A stretch of 64,000 nucleotides of DNA, from contig CAXIPT010000010.1 in assembly GCA_964030475.1 (NCBI GenBank), forward strand, positions 254,177 to 318,176. Direction: 5' to 3'. Under the pieces are notes generated by a model. It did no database searches, was not told the DNA's origin, and saw nothing but the letters and a program-made list of their open reading frames with translations. The translations under genes and the position numbers were made by a program. This stretch comes from Tethya wilhelma. Taxonomy: Eukaryota > Porifera > Demospongiae > Tethyida > Tethyidae. Positions 19,874 through 55,996 of the stretch are shown piece by piece. Every line of letters begins with the position of its first letter. Position 1 is the stretch's first letter.

Positions 19874-21745
19874 TTAAAGAAGTGTTTGGCAAATAGTAAA
19901 GAAAAAGCCCACCAATAGAAACAGAAAGTAAATCGGGCTGCTTATGTCGATCGGGATATCGGTGCCAATGAGTCGTGGACGAAAGTCATATTTTCCTTCT
20001 TTTGAAATCTTGTTTAGTGTACCAAATTCCTTGCGTGATATTCTTTTATCCATTTTTGTGAAATATCTTTTGTGATAAGCTTCTATTCTCTTGGCACACA
20101 AGTAGGGTATTAGAAGGGTAATCAGTTGGTTGATGTTGAATGTGAGATAATACAGCTTTGGGTAAATCGAGGTCAAGGTGTCTGTTTCATCTTGCCATGG
20201 TAGTAGGACGTTTCCAACCTCAAGTGAGGCTGCTATGAAGTAGATGATCCACGGTAGTATGAACCACGTCTGAAAAATTTCATTCAATGTTTTTACCTTT
20301 TTTCCTTTTTCACGATACTCCTGTGTAACTGTTTTGACATACTCATCTGTTGAGTTCAGTTGCTGTACAAGTATGCTAATCGCATCATTTTCAGGAAGTC
20401 CCAATTCAGCCCTGGAAGAGTCATTGCTGGAATTTTCATTGCCTTATGGCCACCACACTCTCCCAACCACCATTGTAGTGACAATCATCCCAACTCTCAC
20501 TGAAAAGGCCCATATGTAGCGTAGTACATTTACAGCACAGTAAGCAATGTAGACTATGCCAATCTCCTTGTCGCAAGTTACTCTCTTCGTGTGTTCGATC
20601 TCTTGTACTATCCCAAGTGCAGGAATGCCCACCACCCCAAGTAAGAAGTAGGGAATTAAAATGATAACAATGCAAATTAGCGTCGGTGTAGTGCAAAGCC
20701 TTTTCCCCCCAGCGTTTATAACTGTGTTGATAAACTTTAGATCTTTCCCTACGAATATTATCAATCCATAACTGAGAAAGCTGTATTCAGCGATTCGAAG
20801 TATATTTATGAGTGTGTATATACAAACCGTAAATATCTTGACCAGTTTGATGTTAGTTTGTGTTCCATTCGACACTGCACCTATGTACGTATTGTTTGGA
20901 TTGCTGATGCATGTGTTTCCTCCAACTTCAGTTGAATATCGTGTGACAAGCAACAACATCTTAACAACAAATGTGCATATAGCCAGAGTTGACACAAGTA
21001 CTGCCACTACTTGGGCTCTCTCCCATTTCCTCTGCCAAGCAAAATAAAATAATAGTTACTGTTATACTCTTGGCACATTTTATTATATGTATGCATTCTG
21101 TCATTGTATTTTTTAATTGGCCTACTATAGCATCAATGTCAAAGTGATAATTTGCCACTAGTTCAATTTCTGAAGTGTTATAAATGGAAAGCACTGAATC
21201 AATAGTAAAGAAGAAGCAGTAGTTCTTGCTCAGAGTCTTACTTCAGGCTTAAAGAATGGGACTATAAATGAACGCACGAGTTACTAGACATTTTTATTCT
21301 TACTTAACAATATGCTGTATAGTAGCTACTGAGATTAACTTGACATTCTGAAAACCTTGGGATGCTTATTGATTACTAATTGTGTTGCTATTCTTGTGCT
21401 TACACATATATAGCTTTAAAATTGCCTACCTCATCTCTGACTATATTTCCCAGCCTATCTTGATCATCTCCGGGCACTGGATCGTACTGTATGTGTGCAA
21501 TATATTTTTAATGCATACTCTTATGCACATTTAATGTTTATAAACTATTAATTAGCCCTCAATGTCTGCTAATGTTAAGCAAGAGTCATTACAATCAATT
21601 TGTGTGTGTATAGCTGTTCAGTGAAAGCTGCATTGTATAGGCAAAGTATATAATAATTTTGCACAAATTTCCCAAATTAAGGAATTACTGCATTGTATTG
21701 TAGCTGTTATATAACTCTTACCTCACTTTGAACATTGCTTGCCAT
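19874..21745 (-). CDS. Seven-transmembrane protein, unrecognised tandem family, member A (in-frame stop)
   Basis: Three coding exons with phase-0 joins: 21722-21745 (ATG, MASNVQSE, 24 nt), 21430-21486 (YDPVPGDDQ..., 57 nt) and 19874-21031 (transmembrane body). The body has seven hydrophobic segments, a glycosylated first outer loop (NNT, NGT) and the family motif FQTWFILPWIIYF before TM5. An in-frame TAA lies at 20444-20446, between TM4 and TM5. Either the gene is dead, or the stop is removed by a 45-nt intron (20412-20456, GTGG...CCAG, length divisible by three) that would also delete the usually conserved Trp after RV. The same stop is present in member B, so it predates or was copied with the duplication. 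Function unknown; a receptor or channel at the cell surface is plausible. Confidence 0.7.
20070..21090. repeat. Segmental duplication, copy 1 (pairs with 22841-23860)
   Basis: About 1,020 bp essentially identical, at a constant offset of 2,771, to 22841-23860, covering most of the body exon of member A. Confidence 0.93.
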
Positions 21746-22803
21746 TTTAAACGAATGTTAAATTCACAATTGTAAAAGCTTGGTGCTGGACTTGCTCTGA
21801 GTTGTTATGTTGTTTACAGGCCTATATACTAACATATATATGCAATATTCATATATATAGTAAATGAATGTATTATGGAGGGCACATGTGACAGGCGTTT
21901 CTATTATTCACTTGTTTTTCCAAGAAAAATAATACTATGATGTCATCATTGTTTTTGCATGTGATACAATATGTAAATTTCATGTGATTCTGTCAGTCGA
22001 TCTGGCTGTAGTGGACTGTCATTCCAATGTATTGCATGCACTAGTGTATCTGATTTTCTGGAAACATATGTATGAATAAATTAAATGGCATAATTATACT
22101 GAGTGTACCATCAAATTGTAGCCTTGTTCTCAGACCTTCTTCAGAATGCACACTATTTATGCTGGCATTATTTATTTCATATCGATTTACACGAAAAACC
22201 AAACCATTATTACGAACTTTCAGCCAACAATCTTCCTTAGTCTCTGACCATATCCTGACTAACTGACTGACCTTAAAAATCATTGGACAATCACTAACTT
22301 TAGACCACATTCTGGCCAACTGACCTTCACAGTAATGGCAGCCTGTTTCTTCAGGTACTCCAATCTCTTTTGGTGGGCCTTTCTTTGTCAATAGCCCTTC
22401 TAATGAGCCTGTAAGGCCACAGTCTGCCTCTCTCTCTCTTTCTCTCTCTCTCTTAGTATATAGAACACGTATAATTGTTGTTTTGTATCTTGCTTAAGTT
22501 TAGTATTATATGTTATGTCGTGTTATATTTGTTATGTAGTATTATTGATAATAGGATTCACACACTTGTATTAGCAATGCTATAGTATCATTATGGGGTG
22601 TGCCACATTGCAGTGTGATGAATTGAGCCTGGTATAATAACACTGCATGATTAACAATTACCATGAATATCATCACTACTTAAACTCTATTGGGAGTAGT
22701 ATAGTCCCATGTATTATGACAATATTCATACATATCCACAGCTTGAGCATAAATATAACATACAAAACATTGAGTACTCAGCAGTACGTAGCCATGTTTA
22801 TGA
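21746..22803. other. Intergenic, upstream of member A
   Basis: No gene seen. The part 21830-22150 is related to 25910-26180 (shared GGCACATGTGACA-type words and GTAGCCTTGTTC...AGACCTTCT), so the two genes' 5' flanks descend from one ancestor. A CT-rich microsatellite lies at 22422-22454. Confidence 0.7.
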
Positions 22804-22840
22804 TCATGTGCACACTAAGTGGTAGGTATATATGGCATAA

Positions 22841-23860
22841 TTGTGATAAGCTTCTATTCTCTTGGCACACAAGTAGGGTATTAGAAGGGTAATCAGTTGG
22901 TTGATGTTGAATGTGAGATAATACAGCTTTGGGTAAATCGAGGTCAAGGTGTCTGTTTCATCTTGCCATGGTAGTAGGACGTTTCCAACCTCAAGTGAGG
23001 CTGCTATGAAGTAGATGATCCACGGTAGTATGAACCACGTCTGAAAAATTTCATTCAATGTTTTTACCTTTTTTCCTTTTTCACGATACTCCTGTGTAAC
23101 TGTTTTGACATACTCATCTGTTGAGTTCAGTTGCTGTACAAGTATGCTAATCGCATCATTTTCAGGAAGTCCCAATTCAGCCCTGGAAGAGTCATTGCTG
23201 GAATTTTCATTGCCTTATGGCCACCACACTCTCCCAACCACCATTGTAGTGACAATCATCCCAACTCTCACTGAAAAGGCCCATATGTAGCGTAGTACAT
23301 TTACAGCACAGTAAGCAATGTAGACTATGCCAATCTCCTTGTCGCAAGTTACTCTCTTCGTGTGTTCGATCTCTTGTACTATCCCAAGTGCAGGAATGCC
23401 CACCACCCCAAGTAAGAAGTAGGGAATTAAAATGATAACAATGCAAATTAGCGTCGGTGTAGTGCAAAGCCTTTTCCCCCCAGCGTTTATAACTGTGTTG
23501 ATAAACTTTAGATCTTTCCCTACGAATATTATCAATCCATAACTGAGAAAGCTGTATTCAGCGATTCGAAGTATATTTATGAGTGTGTATATACAAACCG
23601 TAAATATCTTGACCAGTTTGATGTTAGTTTGTGTTCCATTCGACACTGCACCTATGTACGTATTGTTTGGATTGCTGATGCATGTGTTTCCTCCAACTTC
23701 AGTTGAATATCGTGTGACAAGCAACAACATCTTAACAACAAATGTGCATATAGCCAGAGTTGACACAAGTACTGCCACTACTTGGGCTCTCTCCCATTTC
23801 CTCTGCCAAGCAAAATAAAATAATAGTTACTGTTATACTCTTGGCACATTTTATTATATA
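22841..23860. repeat. Segmental duplication, copy 2 (pairs with 20070-21090)
   Basis: Same sequence as 20070-21090. The left junction joins it to unrelated DNA; on the right a MITE follows, then diverged homologous flank (24014 onward against 21090 onward). Confidence 0.93.
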
Positions 23861-26340: not shown

Positions 26341-26388
<48 letters not shown>

Positions 26389-27830
26389 TGTCCAGTGAAA
26401 ACTGAAGAGTGCTAGATGGTGATAAACAGCTGTTGTTCACGCTATTCAAACTGCCATTTGTATGCCATGCCTATCACTTAATGTCTCCATGATCATCTAT
26501 GTGACTACTACTACTCAGTGTTTTGTTTTGCCCAGCCTGTGGAAATGTATGAATTCTAGTCATAGCAGGTACATTGGCTTAAATTATAGTTTTATTGTAT
26601 AGCCATTGTCTGTCTTGAACTTGATCTGTATTGATATATGCTTACTCTAGTTCATATGTGGTTTCAATTAGTCACCAAATATTGAGTGATTTGATGATAA
26701 CAAATTTAAAGTGTTTTTGCAATGTTGAAAACTACAACATCAAGAATTTTCCCTACTTCTGGCATATACATACATGTATTTACTGCATTATCAATACATT
26801 GTTACACAAATTTACAAAACTGTATGTGTATTCTATATGCTACCTTTAAGATGTTCATCTAGAACAAAATTTAACCACATATTATTTACTTTCAGTAGTT
26901 ATAAAAGAGTTTTGCATACAGTAAAGAAAAAGCCCACTAGTAGAAATATAAAATAGAGTGGACTACTTATGTCAACTAAGATATCAATCCCAATGAGCCG
27001 TGGACAAAAGTCATAGTATTCAATTTTTGTAATCTTCATCATTGCACCAAAATTTCTTGCAAAAATTTTCCGCTCCATACGTTCATAGTATTTCTTGTGA
27101 TAATGTTCTATTTTCTTAGCACACAAGTAAGGTATGATGAGGGTGATAAGCTGGTTGATGTTGTACATGAGGTAGTAGAGTTTGGGGTAAATAGATGTGT
27201 ATTCTTCTTTGTCATCTTGCCAAGGTAGTAGCACATTTCCAACTTCAAGAGAGGCAGCGACAAAATAGATTATCCAAGGGAATATAAACCAAGTCTGAAA
27301 TATTTCATTGCAAGTATGTACTAGCTTTCCTTTTTCGTTATATTTTTTGTCAAGTCTCTTGACATATTTGTCTGTTGCATGTAAATCTTGAATATGTCCC
27401 TCGGATATTGGTGTTTCATCACTATTGGATGTTTCTTCCTCATCACTACATTCTTCCCATACTTGTTTTATCGCTAGTGTATAGACAATCATTCCTACAC
27501 GCACAGAAAAGTCCCACGCATATCGTAGCACATTTATGGCACAATATGCTATGTATACTCTCCCAATGGTTTTATCGCACTCTTTTTGTTTTGCATGTTC
27601 GATCTCTTGCACAATCCCCAAGGCTGGTATAACTGCTATTCCCAGTATGAAGTAGGGAGTCAACATTATAATGATACAAGTTAACAAAGATGGTTTGCAA
27701 AGTTGTCGTGTGCATATATTTTGTAGTTTTTTAGAATATTTTTTGTTGTCACCACACTTTTGTACTACAGTTATAAGTCCGTAGCACAGAAAGCTGTATT
27801 CAAAAACTCGAAGTACTCCAAGCAAAGTGT
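25659..27830. repeat. Tandem duplication unit 1
   Basis: About 2,172 bp directly followed by a copy at 27831-30019. The only difference I noticed is the length of the GT microsatellite (26338-26386 here). Confidence 0.95.
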
Positions 27831-27837
27831 GGTGCAT
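26899..27837 (-). pseudogene. Seven-transmembrane family, member C' (N-terminally truncated duplicate)
   Basis: A 312-residue open frame identical to the intact member at 29088-30242 from GVLRVFEYSF onward. It lacks the two 5' exons, TM1 and the glycosylated first loop, because the duplication junction falls at 27830/27831. The junction happens to create an ATG (MHHTLLG) in frame. Six transmembrane segments remain. Product, if made, would have an altered N-terminus. Confidence 0.75.
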
Positions 27838-28513
27838 GTTTGTTCAGTGAAAAACACAAAAAGTTTAGGCACAGTGAATTATTTTAGCACAGAATTAAGA
27901 TATTTTATGTTGTATTGTAGCTATTATACAACTCTTACTCCTTTTCTGCAAAGACATGCCATTTTAACTCTCCTGTCAGGCCTTTCCACTTGAGCTGAAT
28001 GTAAATTCACAATAAACAGTAAAAGCTTGGTACTGAACTTGCTCTGAGTTGAGATTGTGTTACATTGTGTAAAGGCCTACTAATATTCATATCATTGCTT
28101 GTGGTGAATGAATGTATTATAGAAGGGACATGTGACATATATTCCAGTTATTCACTTGTTTTTCTCAGAAAAACAAGATTACATCACGATTTCTATTATG
28201 TGTAATATCAGTGTGTGCATGCATTTTATGTTATTCTATCCGTCAATCTGTCATTCCATATGTATCACAAGCACTAATGTATCTGATTTCCTGAGAGTGT
28301 GTGTATTGTATAACTGAGTCAATTTGTAGCCTTGTTCCTAGACCTTCTCCAGAATGCACATTAAATTTTTGGAGTTGCAATGATACGTTGCATGGGGAAT
28401 GCCTGGCAAAACTTCTTGTCGTATTGTGTTTTAGTGATAGTAATTGCCCTTAGTGAGGGTTAATCTAGTCTGCATTTTTGTTTGTTTGTTTTGTGTGTGT
28501 GTGTGTGCGTGCA

Positions 28514-28577
<64 letters not shown>

Positions 28578-30019
28578 TGTCCAGTGAAAACTGAAGAGTG
28601 CTAGATGGTGATAAACAGCTGTTGTTCACGCTATTCAAACTGCCATTTGTATGCCATGCCTATCACTTAATGTCTCCATGATCATCTATGTGACTACTAC
28701 TACTCAGTGTTTTGTTTTGCCCAGCCTGTGGAAATGTATGAATTCTAGTCATAGCAGGTACATTGGCTTAAATTATAGTTTTATTGTATAGCCATTGTCT
28801 GTCTTGAACTTGATCTGTATTGATATATGCTTACTCTAGTTCATATGTGGTTTCAATTAGTCACCAAATATTGAGTGATTTGATGATAACAAATTTAAAG
28901 TGTTTTTGCAATGTTGAAAACTACAACATCAAGAATTTTCCCTACTTCTGGCATATACATACATGTATTTACTGCATTATCAATACATTGTTACACAAAT
29001 TTACAAAACTGTATGTGTATTCTATATGCTACCTTTAAGATGTTCATCTAGAACAAAATTTAACCACATATTATTTACTTTCAGTAGTTATAAAAGAGTT
29101 TTGCATACAGTAAAGAAAAAGCCCACTAGTAGAAATATAAAATAGAGTGGACTACTTATGTCAACTAAGATATCAATCCCAATGAGCCGTGGACAAAAGT
29201 CATAGTATTCAATTTTTGTAATCTTCATCATTGCACCAAAATTTCTTGCAAAAATTTTCCGCTCCATACGTTCATAGTATTTCTTGTGATAATGTTCTAT
29301 TTTCTTAGCACACAAGTAAGGTATGATGAGGGTGATAAGCTGGTTGATGTTGTACATGAGGTAGTAGAGTTTGGGGTAAATAGATGTGTATTCTTCTTTG
29401 TCATCTTGCCAAGGTAGTAGCACATTTCCAACTTCAAGAGAGGCAGCGACAAAATAGATTATCCAAGGGAATATAAACCAAGTCTGAAATATTTCATTGC
29501 AAGTATGTACTAGCTTTCCTTTTTCGTTATATTTTTTGTCAAGTCTCTTGACATATTTGTCTGTTGCATGTAAATCTTGAATATGTCCCTCGGATATTGG
29601 TGTTTCATCACTATTGGATGTTTCTTCCTCATCACTACATTCTTCCCATACTTGTTTTATCGCTAGTGTATAGACAATCATTCCTACACGCACAGAAAAG
29701 TCCCACGCATATCGTAGCACATTTATGGCACAATATGCTATGTATACTCTCCCAATGGTTTTATCGCACTCTTTTTGTTTTGCATGTTCGATCTCTTGCA
29801 CAATCCCCAAGGCTGGTATAACTGCTATTCCCAGTATGAAGTAGGGAGTCAACATTATAATGATACAAGTTAACAAAGATGGTTTGCAAAGTTGTCGTGT
29901 GCATATATTTTGTAGTTTTTTAGAATATTTTTTGTTGTCACCACACTTTTGTACTACAGTTATAAGTCCGTAGCACAGAAAGCTGTATTCAAAAACTCGA
30001 AGTACTCCAAGCAAAGTGT
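27831..30019. repeat. Tandem duplication unit 2
   Basis: Copy of 25659-27830 with a longer GT run (about 28518-28574). It continues into the intact 5' part of member C, so this is the copy with the full gene. Confidence 0.95.
27938..27961 (-). other. Duplicate of the 24-nt first exon MACLCRKG
   Basis: Second copy of the exon at 25766-25789, carried along in the 2.17-kb tandem duplication, with the same ATG and GTAAGA donor. It sits just upstream of truncated member C' and could supply it with a start by splicing, but I see no second exon between them. Confidence 0.5.
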
Positions 30020-30780
30020 ATACAGCAACTGTAAATTGGTTATCTAGGTCTATTTCTTTGTGAGTGCTCAAGGTCTCATTTCTAGATAAGGTGTTATTAC
30101 TTTCCAGTTGAGGTTCGCTGCATTTGTGAGCTACTAGTCTTGCTGAGTAGCGAGGAGTAAGCAGGAGAAGTTTAGCAGTGAATGTAGCTATGGCCAGAAT
30201 TGACACAACTATGGAAACAACTCTAGCCTTCCTCCATTTCACCTGTCAATCCAAGTTAACATTTTGATTTTAACTTTTCCACTTTGGTATATATATGTTA
30301 TACCGTATAGCGGGATATTTTCGTGCGGTTAAAATTTCGTTTCAGGCCTTGAAAACAAGTTTTCGTGGTCTTATTTTCGTTCTGGACCCATGACGTGACC
30401 ATTGATTGATATTACCCGCGGCCACGTTTTAAAAATTTCAGATTTTCGTGGGCAAAATTTTCGTTTTCATGCTGACTGGAACGAAAAGAACGAAATTTTT
30501 CCCTCACGAAAATTTCCCGCTATACGGTAGTAATCAATCAAAATTAAACTGACAACAACAACAAAAAAATACTATACCAGTCGTAGAAGTAGCAAATTTA
30601 CTTATCGTGCAATAGTTACCTGATTCGGCTCATTTTCATCTTTTTGAAGAATGTATTTGGCCTTTACGTTCTGTAGTTTATGATGATTAGTATGCATGTG
30701 CTACTTATTCCCAAAATGTCTACTAAGCACTTGTAGTTTCTACAACATATACTCACCCCATCATCATCATTGATATCCAT
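29088..30780 (-). CDS. Seven-transmembrane protein, unrecognised tandem family, member C (intact)
   Basis: Exons 30757-30780 (MDINDDDG, 24 nt), 30620-30670 (NVKAKYILQ..., 51 nt) and 29088-30242 (384 codons plus stop), all joined in phase 0. Product about 409 aa. Seven hydrophobic segments: near VVSIVVSILAIATFTAKLLL, FTVAVYTLLGVLRVFEYSFL, LLTCIIIMLTPYFILGIAVI, YCAINVLRYAWDFSVRVGMI, TWFIFPWIIYFVAASLEV, YYLMYNINQLITLIIPYLCA and PLYFIFLLVGFFFTVCKTLL. N-glycosylation sites lie between TM1 and TM2. Loops TM2-3 and TM6-7 are strongly basic, so the N-terminus should be cytoplasmic and the very short C-terminus outside. One cysteine in the first and one in the second outer loop are conserved in the family. 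The long TM4-5 loop is charged. I do not recognise the family. Confidence 0.85.
30301..30529. mobile_element. MITE, TACNGTA family, copy 4
   Basis: Inverted ends TACCGTATAGCGGGATATTT and AAATTTCCCGCTATACGGTA, 229 bp, in an intron of seven-transmembrane member C. If the outer TA is the target site, this fits Tc1/mariner. Confidence 0.85.
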
Positions 30781-30939
30781 TTGGATCTTATATGAAGGGA
30801 CTGTCTTTTTCTTGTGAGTTACGTTTGGAAGTTTCTTCTGTTTTAGAAGAACTTATTTGTCTTTTTTTCTTATTATATACACATAAAAATGATGAACAAG
30901 GAAATATTAGGTACTACTGATAATATTCATTGTGTTAAA

Positions 30940-31426: not shown

Positions 31427-34311
31427 TTATATTATTGTTTTGGCAACTGTAAAGAAAAATCCTACCGCCAGAAACAAAAAATAGAGTGGGTTGCTTATAT
31501 TGATTCTTATTCCAGTAGCTATTATTCGGGGAGTGAAGTTGTAGCCTTCATTTTTTGAGATTGTCATAGTGGCTCCAAAATCTTCCTCAGATAGTTGCTC
31601 TTCCATCCATGTGTAGTATTTCCTGTGGCGGGTTTCTAGCTGCTTGGCACAAAGATAGGGCACTAGGAGTGTAATCAATTGGTTGATGTTATACATAAAC
31701 CAGTAAATCTTTGGATAGTCAGATGTAAACTTCCCATTGTCATCCTGCCATGGGTGTAGCACATTTCCAGCTTCTAGGGAGGCAACCAGGAAGTAGATGA
31801 TCCAGGGTACAATGAACCAAGTCTCAAACACTTCATTGCATGCTTCTGCTAGCTCCCCTTTTTGCTCGTACATTGTTTTCAGTTCCCTAACTTTTTTTTG
31901 AAGTTTGTTTATTTGCTGAATCAATTCAGTGCTGTTTGAGTATGTTTTATGTGTTTGTGTAGCTGCACTATTGTTAATCCCTTTTAACCACAGCTGGCTA
32001 ACTGTTACAGTGCTAACAATCATGCCCACTCGTACCGCTACAGCCCAACTGTAGCGTAGTGCATTCACTGCACAGTAAGCAAAGAAAACAATGCTGATAT
32101 TTTGAGACGTGTTACATTTCCTTAAGTGTATAACTTCTTGTACAATCCCTATTCCGGGAATTGCTATTATACCAAGTAAGAAGTAGGGAGACAGGATGAG
32201 ACAAATTCCAACCATCCATTTCCGATTGTTTGAAGCAATGTCTTTAATATTACCTTCTTTATTTTTTTTGTTACTGAAAAACGCAAATTTAATTAATCCA
32301 AAGCTGAGCAAACCATATTCAACTATTCTGAGTACGTATACTACTGCAACAATTGCAATGGTAAAATAATAACTGCCACTTGTTTGATTGCTTTGGTCTT
32401 CATTGAATCTTGAAAAAACATTTGATCCAATTTCAAATGTGTTGCTAGGGAATGATTCACAAGGATCGGTGTTAGCTAGCTCTCCATATCGTGTTAGAAT
32501 TAATGCTGCATTAATGACAAATGTTGCTATCGCTAGAATTGACACTATGATGGCTGTGATTTCTCCCCATCCTACTTGAGCCTGTATGTAAAATACCATA
32601 AAATTAAAGTGATGTACTATTAAGTGCATTGTAAAATTATGTTGTAACAATAATTAAAAGTGTTAGTGACTAACTCACCGATCCATTGTGTTGCCTTCCA
32701 TTCTATAGATATAGAGTGAACAAAAAATCTGTCAGACAGCAGACATACAGACATACAAAACGTACGGTGGTCCTGGAGGGCAAAATTGATTTTTAACTTA
32801 AGCGATTTACTTAAGCGATTTTAACTTAAGCATTTTACTTAAGTGATTTTACTTAAACGATTTTACTAACGCGATTTTACTTAAGCGATTTTTACTTAAG
32901 CGATTTTACTTATGCGATTTTAATTTTAGCAATTCTAACTTAAGTTATTTAACTTTAGCCTCGTTCCCAGGCTCCTCCCTCGCTAATTTTTCCTATACGT
33001 ATTAATTTCGATAAGCTATTTTAAATTAACTGATTTATTTGTTAAACAATTTTAGGCCTTAGAGAAAACCAATTAATTAATTGGCCATTTCATTGAAACA
33101 TTTATAATATCTACTGTACATAACTATACAATTGTATTTTAATAATAATTATTGTTCATTATCAAGCTGGAGAATTTTCAGATATTTTGTAGAAAGGGGT
33201 GTTCGATTGTTGATGATGCTTCAAGATCCATAATAATATGGACCACATGATAACACACAATTATGCAATAATTACAATATCATGCTGCTATTGTAAGGTG
33301 GTGAGTATCCTTATAACATTGCGCAATAACAATTATAATAATTATTGTTAACATAATTGCTTTTATTATAATTTATGCTAGTCTATCGAGCTAGACCCTT
33401 TTTTCTACCCCTGACATGCGACAGGAGGAAAAAAGTGTCTAGCACAGGTCACTGTTACAACGCAATTCATTAGTACAGAAGCCATAATGCATAATGTGGT
33501 TGGTTGTAAGTGGTTGTAAAACCAAACTGGTAACTGTAATGATATTCACCACCTTTTGCAGCAGTGGTAGCAATAGTAGCATGCTGCTGTAGTATTCATA
33601 ACACCACTTATCCTACAACCTCACAGCTAGTAGGCCTTGCAGCGCCTACGCAGTAATTGCTTTTGAGATTTCGAAAGCTTGCGCTCATTGGTCGAAAACG
33701 GCCGTGACGTAGGCAATTAAAAGTGACCTGTGCTAGACCCTCTTTCTCTCCCTGGCATTAGGCAGCGGTGAGAAAAGGGTCTAGCTTGATAGACTAAATT
33801 TATGCATGTACAATCACTTCTAACAATAATATAATAATTATTGTAAAGCACGCTTATAATTAATATTAACAAACAAGTTATAGGTACCAAAATAATAATT
33901 ACACTGTACTGTACAAGTATCTTATGCATTGCTGGAGTAACAATTATAAGGTATATTCTAACAAAAACTTTAATGACCCCCCTAAAATCGCTTAACAGAT
34001 AGCCTAAAATCGCTTAAGTCAAATCGCTTACGTTAAAATTGCATAAGTTAAAATCGCGTAAGTAAATTTTTCCCTCCAGGGCCACCATAAAAACGACTAC
34101 TGTTACCCTTACTGTGCATGCGCACGCCAAGGGTTAGTTACTGTACGTAATACATACTATAACATTACAAGAGATGTATTATAAAGTGCATTGTATAATT
34201 TTGCTGTTGCAATAATTAGCAGTGTTTACTTAGTTACTAACTCACCAAGCCATTCCGTTTAGAAGGTGTGGTATCATTTGGTTTCTGTATATATTGAATG
34301 CAGTAAGTCAT
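31427..34311 (-). CDS. Seven-transmembrane protein, unrecognised tandem family, member D (intact)
   Basis: Exons 34246-34311 (MTYCIQYIQKPNDTTP..., 66 nt), 32679-32702 (NGRQHNGS, 24 nt) and 31427-32581 (384 codons plus stop), phase 0 throughout; about 414 aa. Predicted membrane spans at about 38-60, 101-123, 153-177, 193-221, 283-302, 319-341 and 394-414, the last ending at the C-terminus. Glycosylation sites occur in both the TM1-2 loop (NQT) and the TM3-4 loop (NTS, NIS), which places those loops outside and the N-terminus inside. The first intron (32703-34245) is enlarged by a 1.3-kb transposon with a second one inside it. The start is the first in-frame ATG of the 5' exon; an upstream non-coding exon is possible. 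Confidence 0.85.
32766..34086. mobile_element. 1.3-kb non-autonomous DNA transposon with TTAAGCGATTTT subterminal repeats
   Basis: Inverted ends GGTGGTCCTGGAGGGCAAAA and CCCTCCAGGGCCACC. Beside each end lie many copies of ACTTAAGCGATTTT or its complement. No transposase. Lies in the first intron of seven-transmembrane member D and contains another element. Confidence 0.8.
33379..33796. mobile_element. Nested MULE-type MITE with 9-bp target duplication
   Basis: Ends TAGTCTATCGAGCTAGACCC and GGGTCTAGCTTGATAGACTA, flanked by a perfect 9-bp repeat AATTTATGC (33370-33378, 33797-33805). Inserted inside the 32766-34086 element. Confidence 0.9.
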
Positions 34312-34565
34312 GCTATCTAATAGATTCATATTGATGTTTTATTAAGTTATAGTATTACTGTACATCATTTCACACACATGAGTTTAATTGATTACATGCT
34401 AGAGTTAAATTATGCCATTATACAAGATAAGCTGCTATAATATTTTTTTTTTCTTCTACAAGTAGAGACAAGAGCTAAATGAGCCTTGTGAAGTAGTATT
34501 GAGTACATGCAGCAGTTTTATGAAATGCGAACTACTAGCTGTAGCTGCTATTGACCTATTGTAAT

Positions 34566-42900: not shown

Positions 42901-44585
42901 ATGTGGAGTGGTGTGTTTCCTTTATTGTTCTGGACATTAGGGTTGCACCTTGTTGTTGATTCAGTAACAAGAGTCTTAACTATTGTATCTGAACCCCTAT
43001 CACATGCTATATGAAGTGCAGTGTTCCCATCGGGATCTGCAATGTCTGGGTTGCATTCTTTTCTGTGAACGAGTGAGCCCACAATGGCTGTGTGATTCCT
43101 GTCACATGCCAAGTGTAGTGGAGTGTTTCCATATTTATTGACTGAGTTTACATTGCAGTCTACAACTGTTAGAATAATTTCCACCATATCCTGAAGATCT
43201 CTATAGCAGGCAAGGTGTAGACCTGTATTATTGTCTTTGTTTCGTCGATTGATACCATTGTGTGGTATTTTATCTGCTGCAGTGGCACCTTGCTGATCTT
43301 CTTCTGTGGGTCCATTTGTATAAGTTTTAGAGTATAGTATTTTTGTAATAATACTAGCAATTTCATGTAAAGGACTTTTTCCGTGCTTGTTGATCAGAGT
43401 AACATCACAATTCAATTTGGTGATTAGGAGTCGTATCACACTCACTTGTTCACATTGACATGCATAATGCAAGGGAGTGTTTCCTTCACAATTAGCCAGA
43501 TTAGGATTGATACCCGTTTGAGCACCGAGAAACTTCACTACCTCCACTCCTTTTGTTTTACAAGCAATGTGCAGTGGTGTGTCTCCATCATTGTTAACCA
43601 GATTAGGATCGCAACCTACTTGAGTAACAAGGTATTTCACCAATTCTACATCTTCAGTTTCACAAGCAATATGCAAGGGTGTGTCCCTGTTATTGTTGGC
43701 TAAGTGAGGATTACCGTTTCCTTTCTCAATAAGAATGTGGAGAGTGTCTAAGCTAGATGCTCCCCCCTTGCATGCTAGGTGGAGAGCTGTATAGCCATTT
43801 TTGTTTGGTGTATCTGCCTTGCAGTTTGATTTGTCGAGTAGGAATTCAACAGTTTCTGGCCTACCCCCAAGACTCGCCATGTGCAGTGAATTGTTACCAT
43901 CACTGTTGAGATCCTCTGGTTTGCATTTTAGAGCTTCCATAAGATGTTTCACAGATTGTAATTCCTCAGTCTTACATGCTATATGCAACACAGAATTTCC
44001 GTTCCGATTCCATACATTAGGATCACAGTGTAAACTATTTATTAGGTAAGATGCTAATTCAAACTCTTTTGAATTCACAGCCCAGTGGAGCACAGAGTTT
44101 CCTTGATCTAGTAAACTAAAGTCACAGTTTGTGTTTTCGACCAAATAAGCTGCAGCCTCCAGATCTCCTTTCTTACACGCCAGCCACACTCCACTGTTGA
44201 ATATACTAGGCTCCCTATCTTTGACATTCTTTGCCAAGAAAATCACTACATCTAAATGATTGTTATTACTTGCTATATATACAGGTCCATTGGTTTTTGA
44301 ATTGTGAGCAGTTCTTTCAAATCTGAAATCGTATTTTTGGCTCTTTACAAGAGTCCCCACTATATTCACATTTCCCTTTTCACAAGCTAGATCTAGCACA
44401 GTGCGGTGAAATCTATCTCCTATTGTTGGATCAAAATTATAATGTTTTACTAGGATTTCCACTATGTCAGCAAATCCATGTAAGCACGCTACATGTAGTG
44501 GAGTGAATCTGTATTCAGTATTGTCTGTAGTATTTATTCCACATTCTTCAAGAGTGGCCAAGTATCTAACTACATCAGTTTTACC
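39984..44585. repeat. Segmental duplication of the ankyrin-ROC gene, copy 1
   Basis: Matches 44796-50121 over the 3' flank, Death exon, middle exon and the long exon back to the start of the second ankyrin block. The intron before the middle exon is 137 nt here but 806 nt in the other copy. Confidence 0.92.
40071..44585 (-). CDS. Ankyrin-ROC-COR-Death protein, 5'-truncated copy
   Basis: Exons 40686 to about 44585 (ankyrin repeats, ROC GTPase, COR), 40464-40548 (DLAGSPIIPL..., 85 nt) and 40071-40393 (Death domain and stop). The donor for the first is GTAAGT inside the long frame (after GRNLF), and all phases fit. It is nearly identical to the right-hand copy from the second ankyrin block onward, but homology stops abruptly at 44585 and an in-frame TGA lies a few codons upstream, so the N-terminal half is missing. 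The ROC P-loop (GNPSAGKT), DFAGHREF and VGSHAD motifs are intact. There is no ATG at the 5' end of the open frame (it opens at ATC, with a TTG nearby), so a real product would need a downstream Met or an unseen 5' exon. Gene or recent pseudogene cannot be decided here. Confidence 0.75.
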
Positions 44586-44795
44586 TATGATTCATACAAG
44601 GCCTGTCTTGTAGCTGTATTTATTAGCCATACCCACCGTGAAGTTTACGTAATTTAGTACATATTATACTAACTGATTTCCACACACACTTATAGAACTA
44701 GTATAGTTTGACAACATTCATATTCCAAAAACTGATATTTTGTACCTTATAGTTACAGTTGAACTGTAGTACATACTCTAGAATAGGGTTAACTC

Positions 44796-45227: not shown

Positions 45228-45258
<31 letters not shown>

Positions 45259-48200
45259 GGTGTGTGTGTGTGTGTGTGTGTGTGCGCCCGCGTGTGCATG
45301 CGTGTAATGATTTCAATTTGATGTATGTACCTTCAGTATTAGCTGCTGGAGCTAAGTAATCTTCCTGGGTTGAGCTATTCTGTGCAGGTGGTTTAGTAGG
45401 GTAGTCTGCTAACTCCTGTTCATGTGTGCATGTGTAGGTGTATATCCCATAGGTTGTGCTATGAATATATTCCATGCTATATATGAATAATATTAAAGCA
45501 GTAGGCTTGCTAGCTGTATGCTAGCTAGTCGTTTACAGGCTAGTAAAGTTCGCTACTATATATCGTTTACAAATCAGTTTGAAAGTGAGAAACCTCGATT
45601 ATCAGAAGAGCGCTGGATTGAAGCATGGTTTTTTGAAATTTGACTATAGCTACTCTAGGCTAGTATGATACAAGCAACTATAAATCTGTAGTTATCTAGC
45701 TATGGAGTCTTTTGGCAGGCTAGCGAGACTAGCTGGAGCTTTCTTTGTTCAAAAAAAGCAGCCAGAAATTTGAAAATTCACCATTGAACAAACAAAATGG
45801 CAACAGGATTTTTCAAAATTTGTCTGTGTCCATCGCCGAGTCTTATATCAACTATAGCTTGACTCCAGTGTTGTGAGTATTCTTGTATCTATATACTACT
45901 GTAGCAGTTTGGTAGCTAGCTATATAGCTAGAGAATATATACCAGTAGTGCTGTACTCTTAAGTAATCGCAGTACACAAACCACATGCAGTACAATATCA
46001 GTGATATACGCCCTGACCACAGTGCAATATCATATATATGCACTGTCGGCACTTTGATCCACGTCACAAGTGGGCTACAATTCTTATTATGACCTGTATA
46101 CACTTGATACATATGTTATGTGTGTGATACATGATAAAATTCATAGTTTATTGTATAACAAAGCGCAAGATTTCACAAAGTCTATGCCCACAATGTTGTT
46201 TCCAATATTGTGCCAACTTACAAAGAGATTCCTTCTACCAAACACACTGATTTCATTCAACTTGTCCCTCAGACATTGGTATGTCCCATCACAGCTATCT
46301 CTCCATGAATGCAGCACACTCTCTTCACTGTCATCATCTTCACTAGATTCCGAATCAGAGTTTACTGTTTCTACTGATCCTTCAAAATGCTCTACTATTA
46401 TCGTATTATGCTTCCTAAGAGATTTCTCAACTTGAGACACAAAACGATCGTTCATTTTTTCTTCTAACCTTTCTTCATCAAATATTCTTTGCAACATTGA
46501 TGGTTTGAAGTTAGCGTAGGGTTCCAAAGAGAGTAGTTTGATCAGAGGAATGGACTTGCCCTTATTTGTAACGGTTGATGGTTTTCCATTTACAATACTT
46601 TCTGCAACTTCTTTCAAACTGACCGGGTCTAGTTCTGTAGTTGGAATCAGTGGATATTTGACAACTTCAAAAGGATCGATAAATGACTCTACAGGGACTA
46701 CATTGCTGCAGAATGTTTCAGCTGCTTGAAAAACTTTGTTTATTACCTTAGAACGAAGTTGGAGGCATGCTAGTGTGGTTTCCTGACTGCGCATTAGAAT
46801 AACAACTGTTCTACTGGTGTCCAGTAACTCCACCAGTGTCTCCACTCCATCTCTGTTTCCCCAGTAGATACCATTCTTCCAAATTGAGCACTTTCGCTGC
46901 AGTGCTGGATGGTCAGCATCAGATGATGTGGATTGTTGATTGTGAGGAAAGGCAAAAGTGAAGGCCATTCTAAGGAGAAGAATATGAAGAAATTGTGTTG
47001 TGAAAAAATCTTCCATTCTTGAGCACTGTAGCATCCATCCAAAGTGGAAACCATAGTCTTGTCTTTGCTCCCACACGTGACTTGGAGCACTCAAGCTGAC
47101 TAGGCCAGGGAAGAAAAAATGACGAGTGGTTTTTGGTTTAGTTTCATTGTCACTTTTCTGGTCAGATGAGGTCTTGGTACTCTCGTCTATCATTTTGATG
47201 ATTTCATTATCGTGAATTTCTTGACAAAATTCCATGTGACTTAGAAAACCTATCAACATTCCTGAATCATAGTCAAATCGGTTGCTTATATTAGTCAGAG
47301 GCACCACTCCAGTGCTGCTTGACAGCTGACAGTGTTCTTTGAAATCCTTTGGTGCAAATATTGTCCCTGTAACATGAGAAAGAAGTGTCATTTTATCGAT
47401 TATGACCCAGCTATTCTCTTCAGAAGTGGAGTTTGGTAGGTACAGAATGTGTCCTCTGTCATTTAGCTCTTTGCAGATAGCATCTAGATCTTTTGGCGTA
47501 TTTGGCAAAAATGAAGATGCTTCATCTTTGCTTTCTTTCTTGATCTCCTCTTGAATTTGATGTAACTGAACAGCTACAGAATGTTTGAAGTGTTCAATGA
47601 GATAGACAAAGAATAAGTGTGTGTTAAAGCCAATCAGCTTCTGAATTCGTAAAACGTCAGAGCTTTTTTTTATACATTGACGTAGCTCAGACATTCCTTT
47701 AGATTGGTAGAATTGGCAGTCCATTGTCACCAACCCATTGAAAGTATAGTAACTGCTCTTGAGCAGTGGTTTGATTATTTCCAGTTTCTTCTTGAGGTCT
47801 TTTCCTTGAGACTTCACAATATCAGCATGGCTTCCAACTACAATGATGTGAGGTTTATTGTCGACTGATGTACACTGGCTCTTCAGAAATGACAGCCAGT
47901 ACGATACAGTATGTCTGATGTCTTGTTCATCCTTGCTTATGTCTACTACAAGTAAGAATATTGGAGGCGATAACTGGATAGAATTTTGTAGCAGAGCTGC
48001 ATGACTACCATAAAACTCCCTATGACCAGCAAAGTCGAACAGAGTTACATGACCACAAAGTTTACTCTTAAAATCGTGAGGAATTACTCCTGCAGTCTTC
48101 TCTTCTACTTTGGTGACTTTCTTTGACACTAGTGCTCGTTGGAGGAGAGATGTCTCCTTTTGAAGAGCTGCAGTTAGAGTGGTCTTTCCCGCTGAGGGAT

Positions 48201-50121
48201 TGCCAACTATGAAAACTTTGATTGGAGGTTGAATCGGCTCTTTCATCCCCTTATCTATACCAAATGACTTATAAATATCTTTTGTGTTGGCACCGTTGCA
48301 TATTAGTTCATGGATTATCTCTGGATCAGAAGTCGTTCCACTTGGAGGAATTCCAAAACTGTTTTCAATATTAGGATCACACTTTGCCACTTGTAAGAGC
48401 ACTTTTATGATGGAGATGTATCCGTGTTGACATGCAATGTGGAGTGGTGTGTTTCCTTTATTGTTCTGGACATTAGGGTTGCACCTTGTTGTTGATTCAG
48501 TAACAAGAGTCTTAACTATTGTATCTGAACCCCTATCACATGCTATATGAAGTGCAGTGTTCCCATCGGGATCTGCAATGTCTGGGTTGCATTCTTTTCT
48601 GTGAACGAGTGAGCCCACAATGGCTGTGTGATTCCTGTCACATGCCAAGTGTAGTGGAGTGTTTCCATATTTATTGACTGAGTTTACATTGCAGTCTACA
48701 ACTGTTAGAATAATTTCCACCATATCCTGAAGATCTCTATAGCAGGCAAGGTGTAGACCTGTATTATTGTCTTTGTTTCGTCGATTGATACCATTGTGTG
48801 GTATTTTATCTGCTGCAGTGGCACCTTGCTGATCTTCTTCTGTGGGTCCATTTGTATAAGTTTTAGAGTATAGTATTTTTGTAATAATACTAGCAATTTC
48901 ATGTAAAGGACTTTTTCCGTGCTTGTTGATCAGAGTAACATCACAATTCAATTTGGTGATTAGGAGTCGTATCACACTCACTTGTTCACATTGACATGCA
49001 TAATGCAAGGGAGTGTCTCCTTTACAGTTAGCCAGATTAGGATTGATACCCGTTTGAGCACCGAGAAACTTTACTACCTCCACTCCTTTTGTTTTACAAG
49101 CAATGTGCAGTGGTGTGTCTCCATCATTGTTAACCAGATTAGGATCGCAACCTAGTTGAGTAACAAGGTATTTTACCAATTCTACATCTTCAGTTTCACA
49201 AGCAATATGCAAGGGTGTGTCCCTGTTATTGTTGGCTAAGTGAGGATTACCGTTTCCTTTCTCAATGAGAATGTGGAGAGTGTCTAAGCTAGATGCTCCC
49301 CCCATGCATGCTAGGTGGAGAGCTGTATAGCCATTTTTGTTAGGTGTATCTGCCTTGCAGTTTGATTTGTCGAGTAGGAATTCAACAGTTTCTGGCCTAC
49401 CCCCAAGACTCGCCATGTGCAGTGAATTGTTACCATCACTGTTGAGATCCTCTGGTTTGCATTTTAGAGCTTCCATAAGATGTTTCACAGATTGTAATTC
49501 CTCAGTCTTACATGCTTCATGCAACACAGAATTTCCGTTCCGATTCCATACATTAGGATCACAGTGTAAACTATTTATTAGGTAAGATGCTAATTCAAAC
49601 TCTTTTGAATTCACAGCCCAGTGGAGCACAGAGTTTCCTTGATATAGTAAACTAAAGTCACAGTTTGTGTTTTCGACCAAATAAGCTGCAGCCTCCAGAC
49701 CTTCTTTCTTACACGCCAGCCACACTCCACTGTTGAATATACTAGGCTCCCTATCTTTGACATTCTTTGCCAAGAAAATTACTACATCTAAATGATGGTT
49801 TTTACTAGCTATATATACAGGTCCATTGGTTTTTGAATTGTGAGCAGTTCTTTCAAATCTGAAATCGTATTTTTGGCTCTTTACAAGAGTCCCCACTATA
49901 TTCACATTTCCCTTTTCACAAGCTAGATCTAGCACAGTGCGTTGAAATCTATCTCCTATTGTTGGATCAAAATTATAATGTTTTACTAGGATTTCCACTA
50001 TGTCAGCAAATCCATGTAAGCACGCTACATGTAGTGGAGTGAATCTGTATTCAGTATTGTCTGTAGTATTTATTCCACATTTTTCAAGAGTGGCCAAGTA
50101 TCTAACTACATCAGTTTTACC
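44796..50121. repeat. Segmental duplication of the ankyrin-ROC gene, copy 2
   Basis: Right-hand partner of 39984-44585; the break at 50121 lies inside the coding sequence. The larger intron (45416-46221) includes DNA absent from copy 1. Confidence 0.92.
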
Positions 50122-52896
50122 GTAGAAGCAAGCTGTATGTAAGGGGACATTACTTTCCCATATATCATGATTACATTTTGTGTGTATTCTGCATTTTTTT
50201 TCATCGACTAGAAAACGTACAATGTCTGTATGACCGTGTTTACAAGCTTCATTGACTGGTGTGTACATCTCTGAGTCAGTATACTTGTGGTCTTTACATC
50301 TCCATTTTCCATTGAGTATGTATGGATCTGCACCAAATTCCATGAGAACTTTTACAAATTCCAGTGAGCCTGCTCGGCAAGCATAGTGTAAAGGAGTGTT
50401 ACCAATACACAGAACTCTTGCCTGTTTCAACGTGTTTGTTCTTCTGAACCATTCGTCATTATATAGATTATCGTCAGGTTTTATACTATTAGGATCTGCT
50501 CCCTTTTCCAACAGCTTGGTAGCTTCAGCGAAATCTCCCTTGATGCAAGCTTCAAGTAATTGTTGGTTCAGTTCGCTAGGATGAAGCACTTTACCCATTA
50601 CTTTACTATTAGTACTGTGGTATACAAGTTGGTGAATTATCTCTAGATTTGAAGTCATTCCATTTGGAGCATTCCCAGAATTATTTTTTATGCTAGGATC
50701 GCTTCTAAAATCTAAGAGCAGTATTACGACTTTAACAAATCCATGTTGACATGCAATGTGGAGTGGTGTGTTGCCTTCATTGTTCTGGATGTTAGGGTTA
50801 CACCTTTCTCTTGAGTTAATGAGATAGTAAACTAATGTATCTGAGCCTTTATCACAAGCTATGTGAAGTGCAGTGTTACCATCAGAATTGGGAATATTCG
50901 GGCTGCAGTCTCTTCGTATGAGTGTAGCAACAATGGAAATATTTACTTCTTCACATGCCAAGTGTAGTGGAGTGTTACCATGTTTATTGACTGAGTTTTT
51001 ATTGCAATTTACAATGTCTAGTAAGATTTTTACAATGTTATCATGACCTCCAAGGCAAGCAAGGTGTAGAGCCGTATTGCCGTTGATGTTTGGTTGATTG
51101 ATGTCATTGCTATGTTTTTCATCATGTGTAGTGGTTCCTTCTTCGTTTTCTTGATCTCCAATCTTATGAGCCATATCTTCTTGTCTAGACTTGTGATGTA
51201 AGAGCTCAATAAGGATTTTAGCAATACCAAATACTCCATTTTCACACTCATCATGTAGGGGGCTATTTCCATACTTGTTAAGCTGATTTGGATCGCAATT
51301 TAGTTCAGTGATCAATAGTCGTATAACATCCTTTTGTTTATATTGACATGCAATATGTAGAGGTGTGTCTCCATCATTGTTAGCAAGATTAGGATCACAA
51401 CCCAGTTGAGTAGCAAGGTATTTCACCACTTCCACCTCTTTAGTTTCACAGGCAATGTGCAAAGGGGTGTCTCCTTGTTTGTTGACTAAATGAGGATTCC
51501 CTTTTCCTTTCTCGATGAGAATGTGGAGAGTTTCTATAGTGAGTGGTCCTCCCGTGCAGGCTAGGTGGAGAGCTGTGTCACCATTTTCGTTGGGTGTATT
51601 TGATTTACAATCTGAATTGTCAAGCAAGTATTCAACAACTTCTGGCCAAGTCACACAACTTGCAAAGTGCAGTGAATTGTTACCATATCTGCTAAGATCC
51701 TCTGGTTTGTACCGAAGAACTGTAATAAGGTCTTTTGCAAGTTGCAGTTCCCCATCTGCACATGCTGTGTGCAGCACAGTTTCTCCTTCTTGATTCCATA
51801 TGTTCGGATCGCAGTGCGCCTCATTTGTTAGGTAAATTGCTAAATCTAGGTTTTTCAGTTTCGCTGCCAAATGAAGCACAGTGTTGCCATCTTTGTCTAG
51901 AGCATTCAAGTCACAATTTGTGTTTTCAACCAAATAAGTTACAGCCTCCAGATCTCCTTTTCTGCATGCCAGGTGCAGTCCACTGTTGAATATGCTAGGA
52001 TGACTGTCTTCAACATTCTTTGCCAGGAAAATCACCACATCTAAATGTTTACCCTTACTTGCAAAGTCGACGGGTCCCGGTTTGGTTGATGCATCTTCAG
52101 CAGTTCTTTTAAATCTGAAATCATATTTTGTGCTCTTAACTAGAATCTCCACAATATCAACGTATCCCTTTGCACAAGCTATATCAAGAGGTGTGAGTTG
52201 CCTTTTGTCAAGTACTGTTGGATCGAGATTTTCAGTTTTGACAAGAACTTCCACTATGTCAGAAAATCCACGAGAGCATGCCATGTGTAGGGGAGTTAAT
52301 CCACATTTTTCATGTTCAGTATTTAAGCCAGAATTCTCAACAGTGACCAAATATTTAACTACGTCAGTTTTGCCATAGTAACAAGCCACGTGTAACAGGG
52401 TATTGTTCTCACTGAATTTCACATCTAACTTACATTTTTTCACTCCAACTAGGTATTGTACAATAACTGTGTGGCCATGTTTACAAGCTTCTTGAATTGG
52501 AGTGAGCAAATCAATATACTTGTGATCTTCACTTACCCTTTTTCCATTCTGTTTGTACGGATCTGCACCAAATTCCATGAGAATTTTTACAAATTCCAGT
52601 GAGCCAGCTCTGCAAGCATAGTGCAATGGAGTGTTACCGATGGACAGAACTTTTTGTCGGTTCCGTATGTTTGTTCTATTGAACCATTCGTCATAATTTA
52701 GATTATCGTCATGTTTTGTACTATTTGGATCTGCTCCCTTTTCCAACAGATTGGTAGCTTCAGTATGATCTTCATTGATACACGCCTCAAGTAATTGTTT
52801 GTTGAGTTCCCCAGGATCAAGTTGTAGTTGAGAACTACATTCTGAAGTTTGCTTGTTTTTATTTGGCGATTCTTGTTTCTCCTCTGGTTTATCCAT
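44857..52896 (-). CDS. Ankyrin-repeat ROC-COR GTPase with C-terminal Death domain (DAPK-like without kinase)
   Basis: Exons 46222-52896 (2,225 codons), 45331-45415 (ELADYPTKPP..., 85 nt) and 44857-45194 (338 nt). The long frame continues to 46141, but a GTAAGT donor at 46216-46221 fits the downstream phases; product about 2,365 aa. Domain order: ankyrin block 1 (about 30-765), a repeat of that whole block (about 766-1550, starting with ELNQQLLEAC), ROC GTPase (P-loop GNPSAGKT near 1564, DFAGHREF near 1620, VGSHAD near 1689), COR-like region (about 1740-1960), a Ser/Asp/Glu-rich stretch, and a Death domain (about 2260-2345; WQIIGVQL, MLKQWL, WSDLVEALRSPAVNEHVLAE). ROC-COR plus ankyrin plus Death is the architecture of DAPK1 minus its kinase; such proteins act as cytoplasmic signalling scaffolds. 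ATG at 52896 is a true ATG. Confidence 0.9.
45213..45303. repeat. (GT)n microsatellite in an ankyrin-ROC intron
   Basis: Interrupted GT run just upstream of the Death exon of the complete gene; absent from the corresponding intron of the truncated copy. Confidence 0.95.
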
Positions 52897-53979: not shown

Positions 53980-55996
53980 TTACAGTAGTGCTTTAATGAT
54001 TGTTAGAAATAAGCCTAAAAATATAAACAGATAATAAAGTGGGCTGCTTATATCAATTAAGATCCCTGTTCCTACTATCCGTGGACGAAAGTTAAAGTGT
54101 TCAACTTTTGCAATACTCATCTGGGTACCAAATCTTTGCTTGGCAATTTGATCTTGCATATCTATAAAGCGCTTGCTATGGCAAGTATCCATTTCCTTAA
54201 CACACAAGAATGATATGAGAAGAGTGACCAACTGGTTGATGTTGTATGCAAGATAGTACACTTTGGGGTAAATAGGTGTTGAGGTGTTTGAAGAGTCCAT
54301 CCATGGTTTTAAGGCATGTTCAACTTCAAGAGAAGCAATCACAAAGTATATGATCCATGGTATGATGAACCAAGTTTCAAAAGTTTTATTGAGTGCTCTT
54401 ACAAGCTCACCATCTTCATAATACTTTTTGTAAACTTTTGCAACATACCTCTCTATCCTGTACATGTCTCTAGCATAAGTGTGAGCATCCTCTGGTAAAT
54501 TCTCAGCTGCTTCAATTTCAACATCATTAGACCTCAGCCACACCCTCCTGACCACTATTGTACTGATGATCAGTCCCACACGCACTGAAAAATCCCATAT
54601 ATAGCGAATGAGGTCTGTAGAGCGATAGGCATAAGAGATATAAGCAACATCTGTATCACATGGCTGTCTTTTCACATGCTTGTATTCCATAACAGATCCT
54701 AAAATTGGAACTGTTATTCCTAGCAGTAAGTAGGGAAGTAACACACAACCAAGCACTATTTGATGAGTGATTTTCAGTTTTGTGTGTGTTGTGATAACTG
54801 TGGCCATTTTCTTATCACTAGAACACCTCTTTAGGAATTTGTATGATCCATAACCGAGGATTCCATATTCCAAGACTCTGAGTAGACCTAGGAGTCCAAT
54901 AACAATTGGAATAAATACCATTTCTATGGTTCTATTTGAGGTCTTGTTTGTCTCCTGTAGATTGCATTTGTTTGTAAGTTCAATTGAATATCGAGTTGTT
55001 TTTAGAGCTGCTCTGGTTGAAAATATGATGCAAGCCAGAACTGACAGCATTAGTATAATGTGCCTCTTCGATCCACACTGTGTCATGAATGTATTCCAAA
55101 AATAAGTAATAAATAAATATTAGACAATAAATAATAATTTGAGAACAATAATATTGTATAGAATTGTTTTTTTTTTTTTAATGTACAAATAGTAAGCCAT
55201 CTTGAATCACTTATTAACAGTTGTAGAGTTGCAAAATTTACCATTCTCCATAAAAATTCTTTAGAAAGGAAATATGAATCTGAAAGGCTTTGTCTAGTTA
55301 TTGTTTTGTGTAAAGTACATCTTGTATATAAATCTACCTGTGTATGATTGTAGCCTACATATGAGAGTGTGTTTGGGACAGTATGTAAATGTGATTCCCC
55401 TTTGGTTTCATTGTATTCCCCTCAAAAGTATTTTGTATGGTTACAACTAGCTGCTGCTTTAGCCACAGCTACATATGACTGGTTTTTAATTTTAAACAGT
55501 CTCCTGATTTGGACTGTATATATATTTCCTGTTAAAACATAAAACTCTACTAAAATTACATATACTTACTAAAGTAATAAGTATATCAGTTTCTTATGCT
55601 TGTGAACTTGTTTAAAGATAACCAACCTACTAGTCTCAAACAGCTAAGCTCTCAAACAGCTAGTTAACCTTGTAGGTCCTATATATCTGTTATATATCCA
55701 GATATACTCCTTCCATTCATTTTACTTTGTCTAATGCCATCTTGGGATGGGTATAAACTATTACCTATTCAGAGTATAAAGTTTACCTTAAGATGACCTT
55801 GTGTTTGACGTTCTTCTGTGTCAGTGACATCTTCCAGCCTTGAGTAACTGTTCTGTATATTCTGGACAGAATTGTGTGATAGTATGACCAAACAGTAATG
55901 TGTCACCATTGAACAATGATACTATGTAACAGACATAATAGAAATACCACTCACTGTAGCAGTTCCTCCATAGAAGGGCCACTTTCTATAGTCCAT
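53980..55996 (-). CDS. Seven-transmembrane protein, unrecognised tandem family, member F (intact, diverged)
   Basis: Exons 55955-55996 (MDYRKWPFYGGTAT, 42 nt), 55787-55852 (NSYSRLEDVTD..., 66 nt) and 53980-55077 (365 codons plus stop), joined in phase 0; about 401 aa. Same layout as members C and D: glycosylated first outer loop (NKT, NRT), cysteines in outer loops 1 and 2, FETWFIIPWIIYF before TM5, YYLAYNINQLVTLLISFLC for TM6, and DISSPLYYLFIFLGLFLTII for TM7 at the very end. An ATG at 55086 could start the body without the 5' exons, but the CAG acceptor just after it and the conserved small-exon pattern favour splicing. It is separated from the main cluster by the ankyrin/ROC genes. Confidence 0.83.

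Follow-up and report, generated by a model that had tools for sequence, protein, structure and literature searches.

The sponge Tethya wilhelma carries a multigene family of seven-transmembrane (7TM) proteins that is real and constrained, and whose predicted fold, in the models obtained, is a far closer match to subunits of insect gustatory (GR) and odorant (OR) receptors than to the other PDB chains in the comparison. Six copies are located in the 64,000-nucleotide stretch analysed here (the window). The best explanation as a whole, to which we assign a probability of about 70%, is a constrained 7TM family with an insect GR/OR-like predicted fold, whose members are proposed to act as ligand-opened channels.

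Gene copies in the window

The six related members, all on the minus strand, lie between positions 19874 and 55996. Three of them are intact: member 4 (29088-30780; exons 30757-30780, 30620-30670 and 29088-30242, with the seven TMs all in exon 3), member 5 (31427-34329; exons 34246-34329, or with the start at 34311, 32679-32702 and 31427-32581) and member 6 (53980-55996; exons 55955-55996, 55787-55852 and 53980-55077). Member 1 (19874-21745; exons 21722-21745, 21430-21486 and 19874-21031, GT-AG, phase 0) has a full-length 7TM frame that is interrupted once, by an in-frame TAA at 20444-20446, where the TM4-5 loop is encoded and within the homologous stretch, and is likely a pseudogene. Member 2 (22804-23826) is a truncated copy of member 1, identical to it at 319/319 compared codons; it contains the same TAA, its frame diverges past TM6 and TM7 is absent. 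Member 3 (26899-27843) is a copy of member 4 truncated at the 5' end, with 99.7% identical residues over 310 compared codons; TM1 and the first part of TM2 are missing, and the frame is open from TM2 to TM7. The earlier note had attributed seven hydrophobic segments to all six members: the six related copies stand, and all seven TMs are present in only four of the six, namely members 4, 5 and 6, which are intact, and the TAA-bearing member 1.

The four modelled genes (members 1, 4, 5 and 6), whose exons were predicted from splice signals and reading frame alone, have a common architecture. Two small phase-0 exons, of 24-84 and 24-66 bases, precede one exon of 1098-1158 bases that contains all seven TMs; the introns are GT-AG, and the two phase-0 introns are found immediately upstream of TM1. 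The TM7 of member 4 (29088-29150, minus strand; ...SPLYFIFLLVGFFFTVCKTLL*) is a predicted pore-lining helix with the stop codon immediately after it, and its C-terminus would be outside. A class A GPCR gene is found nearby, at 13843-15069.

The family across the genome

The genome comprises 124.6 Mb in 204 contigs, the window corresponding to positions 254177-318176 of contig C10. The search with member 4 matched 36 stretches, which we grouped by position into loci; the resulting counts are lower bounds and include broken copies. Subfamily A has at least 18 loci: 13 of them on C10 (118-309 kb), one on C3, two on C6, and two fragments, of which C16 carries one and C85 the other. Subfamily B has at least seven loci, on C3 at 9.42-9.44 Mb, and subfamily C at least three, on C6 and C11. 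Queries with a B member and a C member recover identical groups and tie them to one another, and a profile comparison of A with B gave a probability of 99.6% over 270 columns. Among the listed open frames, one of at least 370 residues covers most of the match at 10 of the 18 A loci, 4/7 B loci and 3/3 C loci, a count that leaves out an A locus with a 370-residue frame ending short of TM6 and a B locus whose match is divided among frames.

Relatives from outside this genome, none of which carries a name, are P0001-P0013 for subfamily A and P0014-P0027 for subfamily B, with P0012 and P0013 brought in by a profile search with alignment A1. A tree of 29 rows pairs L017, a gene located elsewhere, with P0003 (support 100/100), and each of the three window genes included with a C10 paralogue (100/100, 100/100 and 87/67); C_L037 forms a long branch, and its placement is unsure.

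The ratio dN/dS was run for eight pairs. Members 3 and 4, and likewise members 1 and 2, are near-identical and give no usable ratio, and the pair of members 4 and 5 is saturated. The other five pairs yielded 0.50 for member 4 and L011 (dN 0.088, dS 0.176), 0.40 for member 5 and L015 (dN 0.220, dS 0.543), 0.26 for member 1 and L012, 0.29 for member 6 and L019 (dN 0.399, dS 1.357, near saturation) and 0.21 for member 4 and L012 (dS 1.5, near saturation). These ratios indicate proteins under constraint and, together with the shared two-intron layout, a family beyond chance.

In a separate observation, silicatein-type cathepsins were found at L057 and L060, two of the 30 Peptidase_C1 loci fetched. 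They have Ser in place of the catalytic Cys (QGDCGASYAFS), a substitution that marks silicateins, and thereby indicate a siliceous demosponge.

Membrane topology

Seven membrane helices are present in both AlphaFold2 models, one of member 4 (model 1) and the other of P0011 (model 2), two divergent members of the family. Hydropathy gives eight peaks, two of them within the long TM4; the shuffle control (mean 4.7, maximum 8) carries no information, since a protein this hydrophobic still shows up to eight peaks after shuffling.

The cytoplasmic N-terminus proposed in the earlier note agrees with the charges flanking the TMs, since K+R favour the N-in orientation in 13/13 complete subfamily A members. 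Summed over 12-residue flanks, the totals are 180 versus 109 K+R for the open frames, which carried a few intronic residues ahead of TM1, and 181 versus 109 when the three window proteins were recounted as spliced and three of the paralogues were trimmed. The margin is a single residue in two of the 13, including member 4, the member that was folded, and the 13 are related, so that the tallies are not 13 independent tests. The TM2-3 and TM6-7 loops are basic, as had been noticed, with 77 K+R against 26 D+E and 114 against 85, respectively, over the 13 members. Glycosylation sequons had been noticed in both the TM1-2 and TM3-4 loops; the first contains one in all 13 complete members and the second in 1/13 only, so the general claim fails there. 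The long TM4-5 loop, predicted to be cytosolic, contains sequons in 8/13, which argues mildly against N-in, although N, S and T abound in this loop. The C-terminus does fall inside or just after TM7, as all 14 rows of A1 stop at the last TM7 residues. Taken together, the flank charges and the TM1-2 sequons point to an intracellular N-terminus, as expected of the 7TM ion channels (7TMICs) under the criteria of Benton and Himmel (2023).

Predicted fold

No sequence-level link to known chemoreceptors was detected. The Pfam 7tm_6, 7tm_7 and other chemoreceptor models matched none of 31 proteins (14 of A1 at E up to 1, and 17 of A6 at E up to 10), and Pfam searches with five window ORFs and the same A1 and A6 sets gave scattered weak matches, none common to more than three members and none pointing to a chemoreceptor family. 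One of these, DUF898 (E 7e-4 in 1/14 A1 members), was taken as a chance transmembrane match. Searching the PDB by sequence returned nothing credible, and PDB profile searches with A1, A4 or A6 no GR or OR chain. PF08395 gave one weak match elsewhere in the sponge genome (E 0.4, below the cut-off), and the controls were silent, so that this search does not establish absence. The TYhhhhhQF motif is found in TM7 of 0/13 complete members. A viral-structure library gave no match below E 0.68, and the IMG/VR contig scan no relative.

Structure prediction followed by a Foldseek comparison with insect receptor structures favours the insect-receptor-like fold proposed earlier. Among the chains passed on by Foldseek, the top 20 PDB entries for both models are all insect GR, OR or Orco, and the weakest of these lies above the best other entry by 5.1 and 7.1 Z units in the two models. 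For the GR/OR rows, Foldseek gave moderate TM-scores (0.32-0.53) and weak E-values. Of all chains compared, insect GRs (Drosophila Gr43a and Gr64a, Bombyx Gr9; structures such as 8x84, 8zdz, 8uvt and 8jme) have the highest Z; they match over 306-323 residues at 6-10% identity and share with the sponge family the N-in topology, the long TM4-6 and a C-terminus just past TM7. ORs and Orco (6c70, 7lic, 8v3d and 8v00) match at 6-11% identity, with Z mostly slightly below the GRs.

The long helices corresponding to TM4, TM5 and TM6 span residues 159-201, 217-254 and 290-332 in model 1, and 150-197, 222-258 and 295-338 in model 2. Judged from their lengths, they would project into the cytosol as the anchor typical of 7TMICs. 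A split of TM7 into a cytosolic TM7a and a pore-lining TM7b, another 7TMIC character, is probably absent, as the models contain no clear TM7a helix. In model 1, TM7 is a single helix (366-384), and the linker from TM6 (pLDDT about 71-84) has no helix of four residues or more, while model 2 shows a nine-residue helix (343-351) between TM6 and TM7. TM7 itself has a pLDDT of only 63-73 (model 1) or 65-79 (model 2), and the two models were built from shallow alignments, of 19 and 16 rows, that have sequences in common. The training cut-off of AlphaFold2 is April 2018; it precedes the release of the Orco entry on 2018-08-22, which makes a memorised template unlikely.

The interpretation as an insect-receptor-like family is thus supported by fold and topology, and by these only. 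We call the family insect-receptor-like rather than GR or OR because it differs from insect GRs in three features that were not found, namely the GR motif of TM7, a resemblance to Pfam 7tm_7 and a distinct TM7a helix.

Conservation and the putative pore

In A1, the most conserved segments are TM6 (0.78), TM5 (0.71) and TM7 (0.69), and the most variable are the loose part of IL2 (0.30), EL1 (0.32) and IL1 (0.33). Within TM2, variability is not higher in the outer half (0.57) than in the inner one (0.53), so that an outer binding pocket is not outlined by conservation. Eight columns of A4 are invariant across subfamilies A, B and C, and seven of them, as we mapped them onto the lead sequence of A4, are found where TM4 ends on the cytosolic side, in the stretch of TM5 or between TM6 and TM7, the pattern that would be expected of a conserved coupling core. 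For Bombyx Gr9, passages of PMC11100771 describe an anchor made of S2, S4, S5, S6 and S7a, with S5 coupling ligand binding to S7b, and a pore lined by S7b, with its gate at I440 and F444 and with T436 in a hydroxyl ring.

The aligned ranges of model 1 reach S7b of Gr43a, Gr9 and Orco. Their last sponge residue is 385, which stands opposite residue 443 in Gr9 (442 for one entry), 421 in Gr43a and 470 in Orco. The aligned ranges of model 2 end at P0011 residue 397 against 443, 421 and 471, respectively. The sponge chain would therefore stop about where the insect chains have a conserved Gln. When residues are counted backwards from there, the gate of the insect channels may fall near K382. This fourth residue from the C-terminus is Lys in eight, Glu in four and Thr in two of the 14 A1 rows, and Gln in member 1 and L012, and the residue three positions before it is Thr or Ser in 14/14; as both placements are taken from range ends, they could be shifted.

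A specific, distinctly doubtful reading is that the proteins are 7TMIC chemoreceptor channels of an expanded sponge family whose pore mouth is charged and not hydrophobic, the charged residue sitting near I440 of Bombyx Gr9 and I418 of Gr43a, with a Lys ring favouring anions and a Glu ring cations. Its pore register depends on range ends that lie one residue apart among the Gr9 entries, in a TM7 modelled at moderate confidence. If it were true, a four-residue ring would give paralogues of opposite ion preference within one family, and opposite signs of response would have evolved before nervous systems.

Other explanations of the fold

The same features of TM7 would suit proteins that have the 7TMIC fold and are not channels, with a PHTF-like, intracellular or scaffold role, for which the fold says nothing about sensing. 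The absence of TYhhhhhQF, the missing TM7a helix of model 1 and the Lys or Glu found in 12/14 near the hydrophobic gate site of insect channels, as placed from the range ends, all point in this direction. Moreover, PHTF and plant DUF3537 are described as 7TMIC-fold families in passages of PMC9998090, the function of PHTF being unknown. Searches of the sponge genome with PF12129 (the N-terminal domain of PHTF) and PF12056 found nothing over the cut-off, and control genomes were equally silent, so that these searches do not establish absence. Receptor families, unlike housekeeping proteins, commonly expand in this way, and the roughly 28 loci, where intact genes stand beside broken ones, look receptor-like in this respect. 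The TM1-2 sequons of all 13 members also suit a secretory-pathway or surface protein, and TM7 is among the best conserved segments. A role other than as a channel is unlikely.

We consider it decidedly improbable that an unrelated sponge 7TM family arrived independently at the same fold and topology. The lack of any link through Pfam, the PDB profile search or PF08395, and the 6-11% identity of the structural alignments, are what such convergence would leave, and Benton and Himmel, in the abstract of PMC9998090, could not exclude it even for their own candidates. Against it, the match takes in almost the whole chain with its long anchor helices, and the GR/OR entries stand well clear in Z of everything else compared.

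A divergent GPCR or transporter-like protein has next to no chance of being the answer: seven hydrophobic segments alone would be compatible with it, and a class A GPCR gene is indeed close by, but the structural match to that class, which the earlier note had named as refuting, is not favoured, the best Z shown for class A GPCR chains being 5.4 and 5.8 in the two models. An assignment as a rhodopsin-type GPCR had been tried, and neither a 7tm_1 profile match nor a GPCR fold was found.

Discussion

On the favoured reading of the family as ligand-opened channels, four subunits would join where TM4, TM5 and TM6 extend into the cytosol and would there form the anchor, and their four TM7 helices would line a single central pore. 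Small dissolved molecules may bind in an outer cavity among TM1-TM6 and, by shifting TM5 and TM7, open the pore, which would depolarise the cell or admit calcium. Tandem duplication followed by divergence may have widened the range of ligands, as with insect receptors.

Another parallel in the literature is that of the animal GRLs, including GrlHolozoa (Benton and Himmel 2023), which have the 7TMIC fold and were likewise recognised by structure and not by sequence; the sponge family comes from one genome and unnamed database proteins. PMC9998090 places homologues, in its abstract, "across Animalia except Chordata", and a 2024 review (PMC11526382, section 2.3.1) names protostomes, cnidarians and placozoans as groups with GR homologues, with sponges off the list. 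Searched by term, the main texts of PMC9998090 and PMC7746228 yielded no mention of sponges, and none of the open-licence papers listed reports 7TMIC, GRL or GR proteins in sponges. The family is therefore, provisionally, new to the literature.

The family represents natural variation in a poorly understood pore, with a TM7 that lacks the GR motif and possibly a charged mouth. If its members are channels, the kind of receptor that insects use for taste and smell would be present in an animal without nerves. As 7TMIC channels, they would provide a concrete, expressible set of genes for chemical sensing without neurons, and would bear on whether the insect-type channel served sensing at the root of the animals.

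Sequence variation within the 7TM family

In subfamily B of the proposed insect-receptor-like 7TM family, TM7 is strongly conserved, with a sequence close to SAGYSFTLILTSFAFVLSFVTAFT, and similarity is higher in this segment than in the N-terminal half (L034, L035 and L036 in this genome and the relatives P0014–P0027 outside it). The TM4-5 loop, predicted to be cytosolic, carries a large Ala/Thr/Glu-rich insertion in two other family members, L030 (contig C10, about 246.6–248.3 kb; open frame of 690 aa) and L029 (contig C6, about 6.09 Mb; open frame of 580 aa), and an acidic EDPGDDPG repeat occupies the same place in a third, L025. Intron 1 of member 5, an intact family gene, contains at 32770–34090 repeat units resembling taagcgattttaac and acttaagtaaaatcgc in both orientations, which, read by eye, are perhaps a small inverted-repeat element.

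Other genes in the window and the genome

A single-exon class A GPCR gene is found on the minus strand at 13843–15069, with a 7tm_1 match of 70.7 bits, above the cut-off; it is one of 40 stretches matching 7tm_1 in the genome, 35 of which exceed that cut-off. Two minus-strand ORFs in tandem, at 57170–58345 (391 aa) and 59821–60918 (365 aa), encode Cys-containing, apparently secreted proteins with a Thr/Ser/Glu-rich N-terminal part, for which Pfam returned nothing at E 0.001. Elsewhere, on contig C2 at about 20.68 Mb, the Peptidase_C1 loci L057 and L060, about 3 kb apart, encode silicatein-like cathepsins in which the catalytic Cys is replaced by Ser (QGDCGASYAFS).

Two very long minus-strand ORFs, at 40623–44591 (1322 aa) and 46141–52896 (2251 aa), contain ankyrin repeats and a Roc GTPase domain, the Pfam search covering the first ORF only. 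Judged by eye, their common part appears near-identical, and the two look like a recent tandem duplication.
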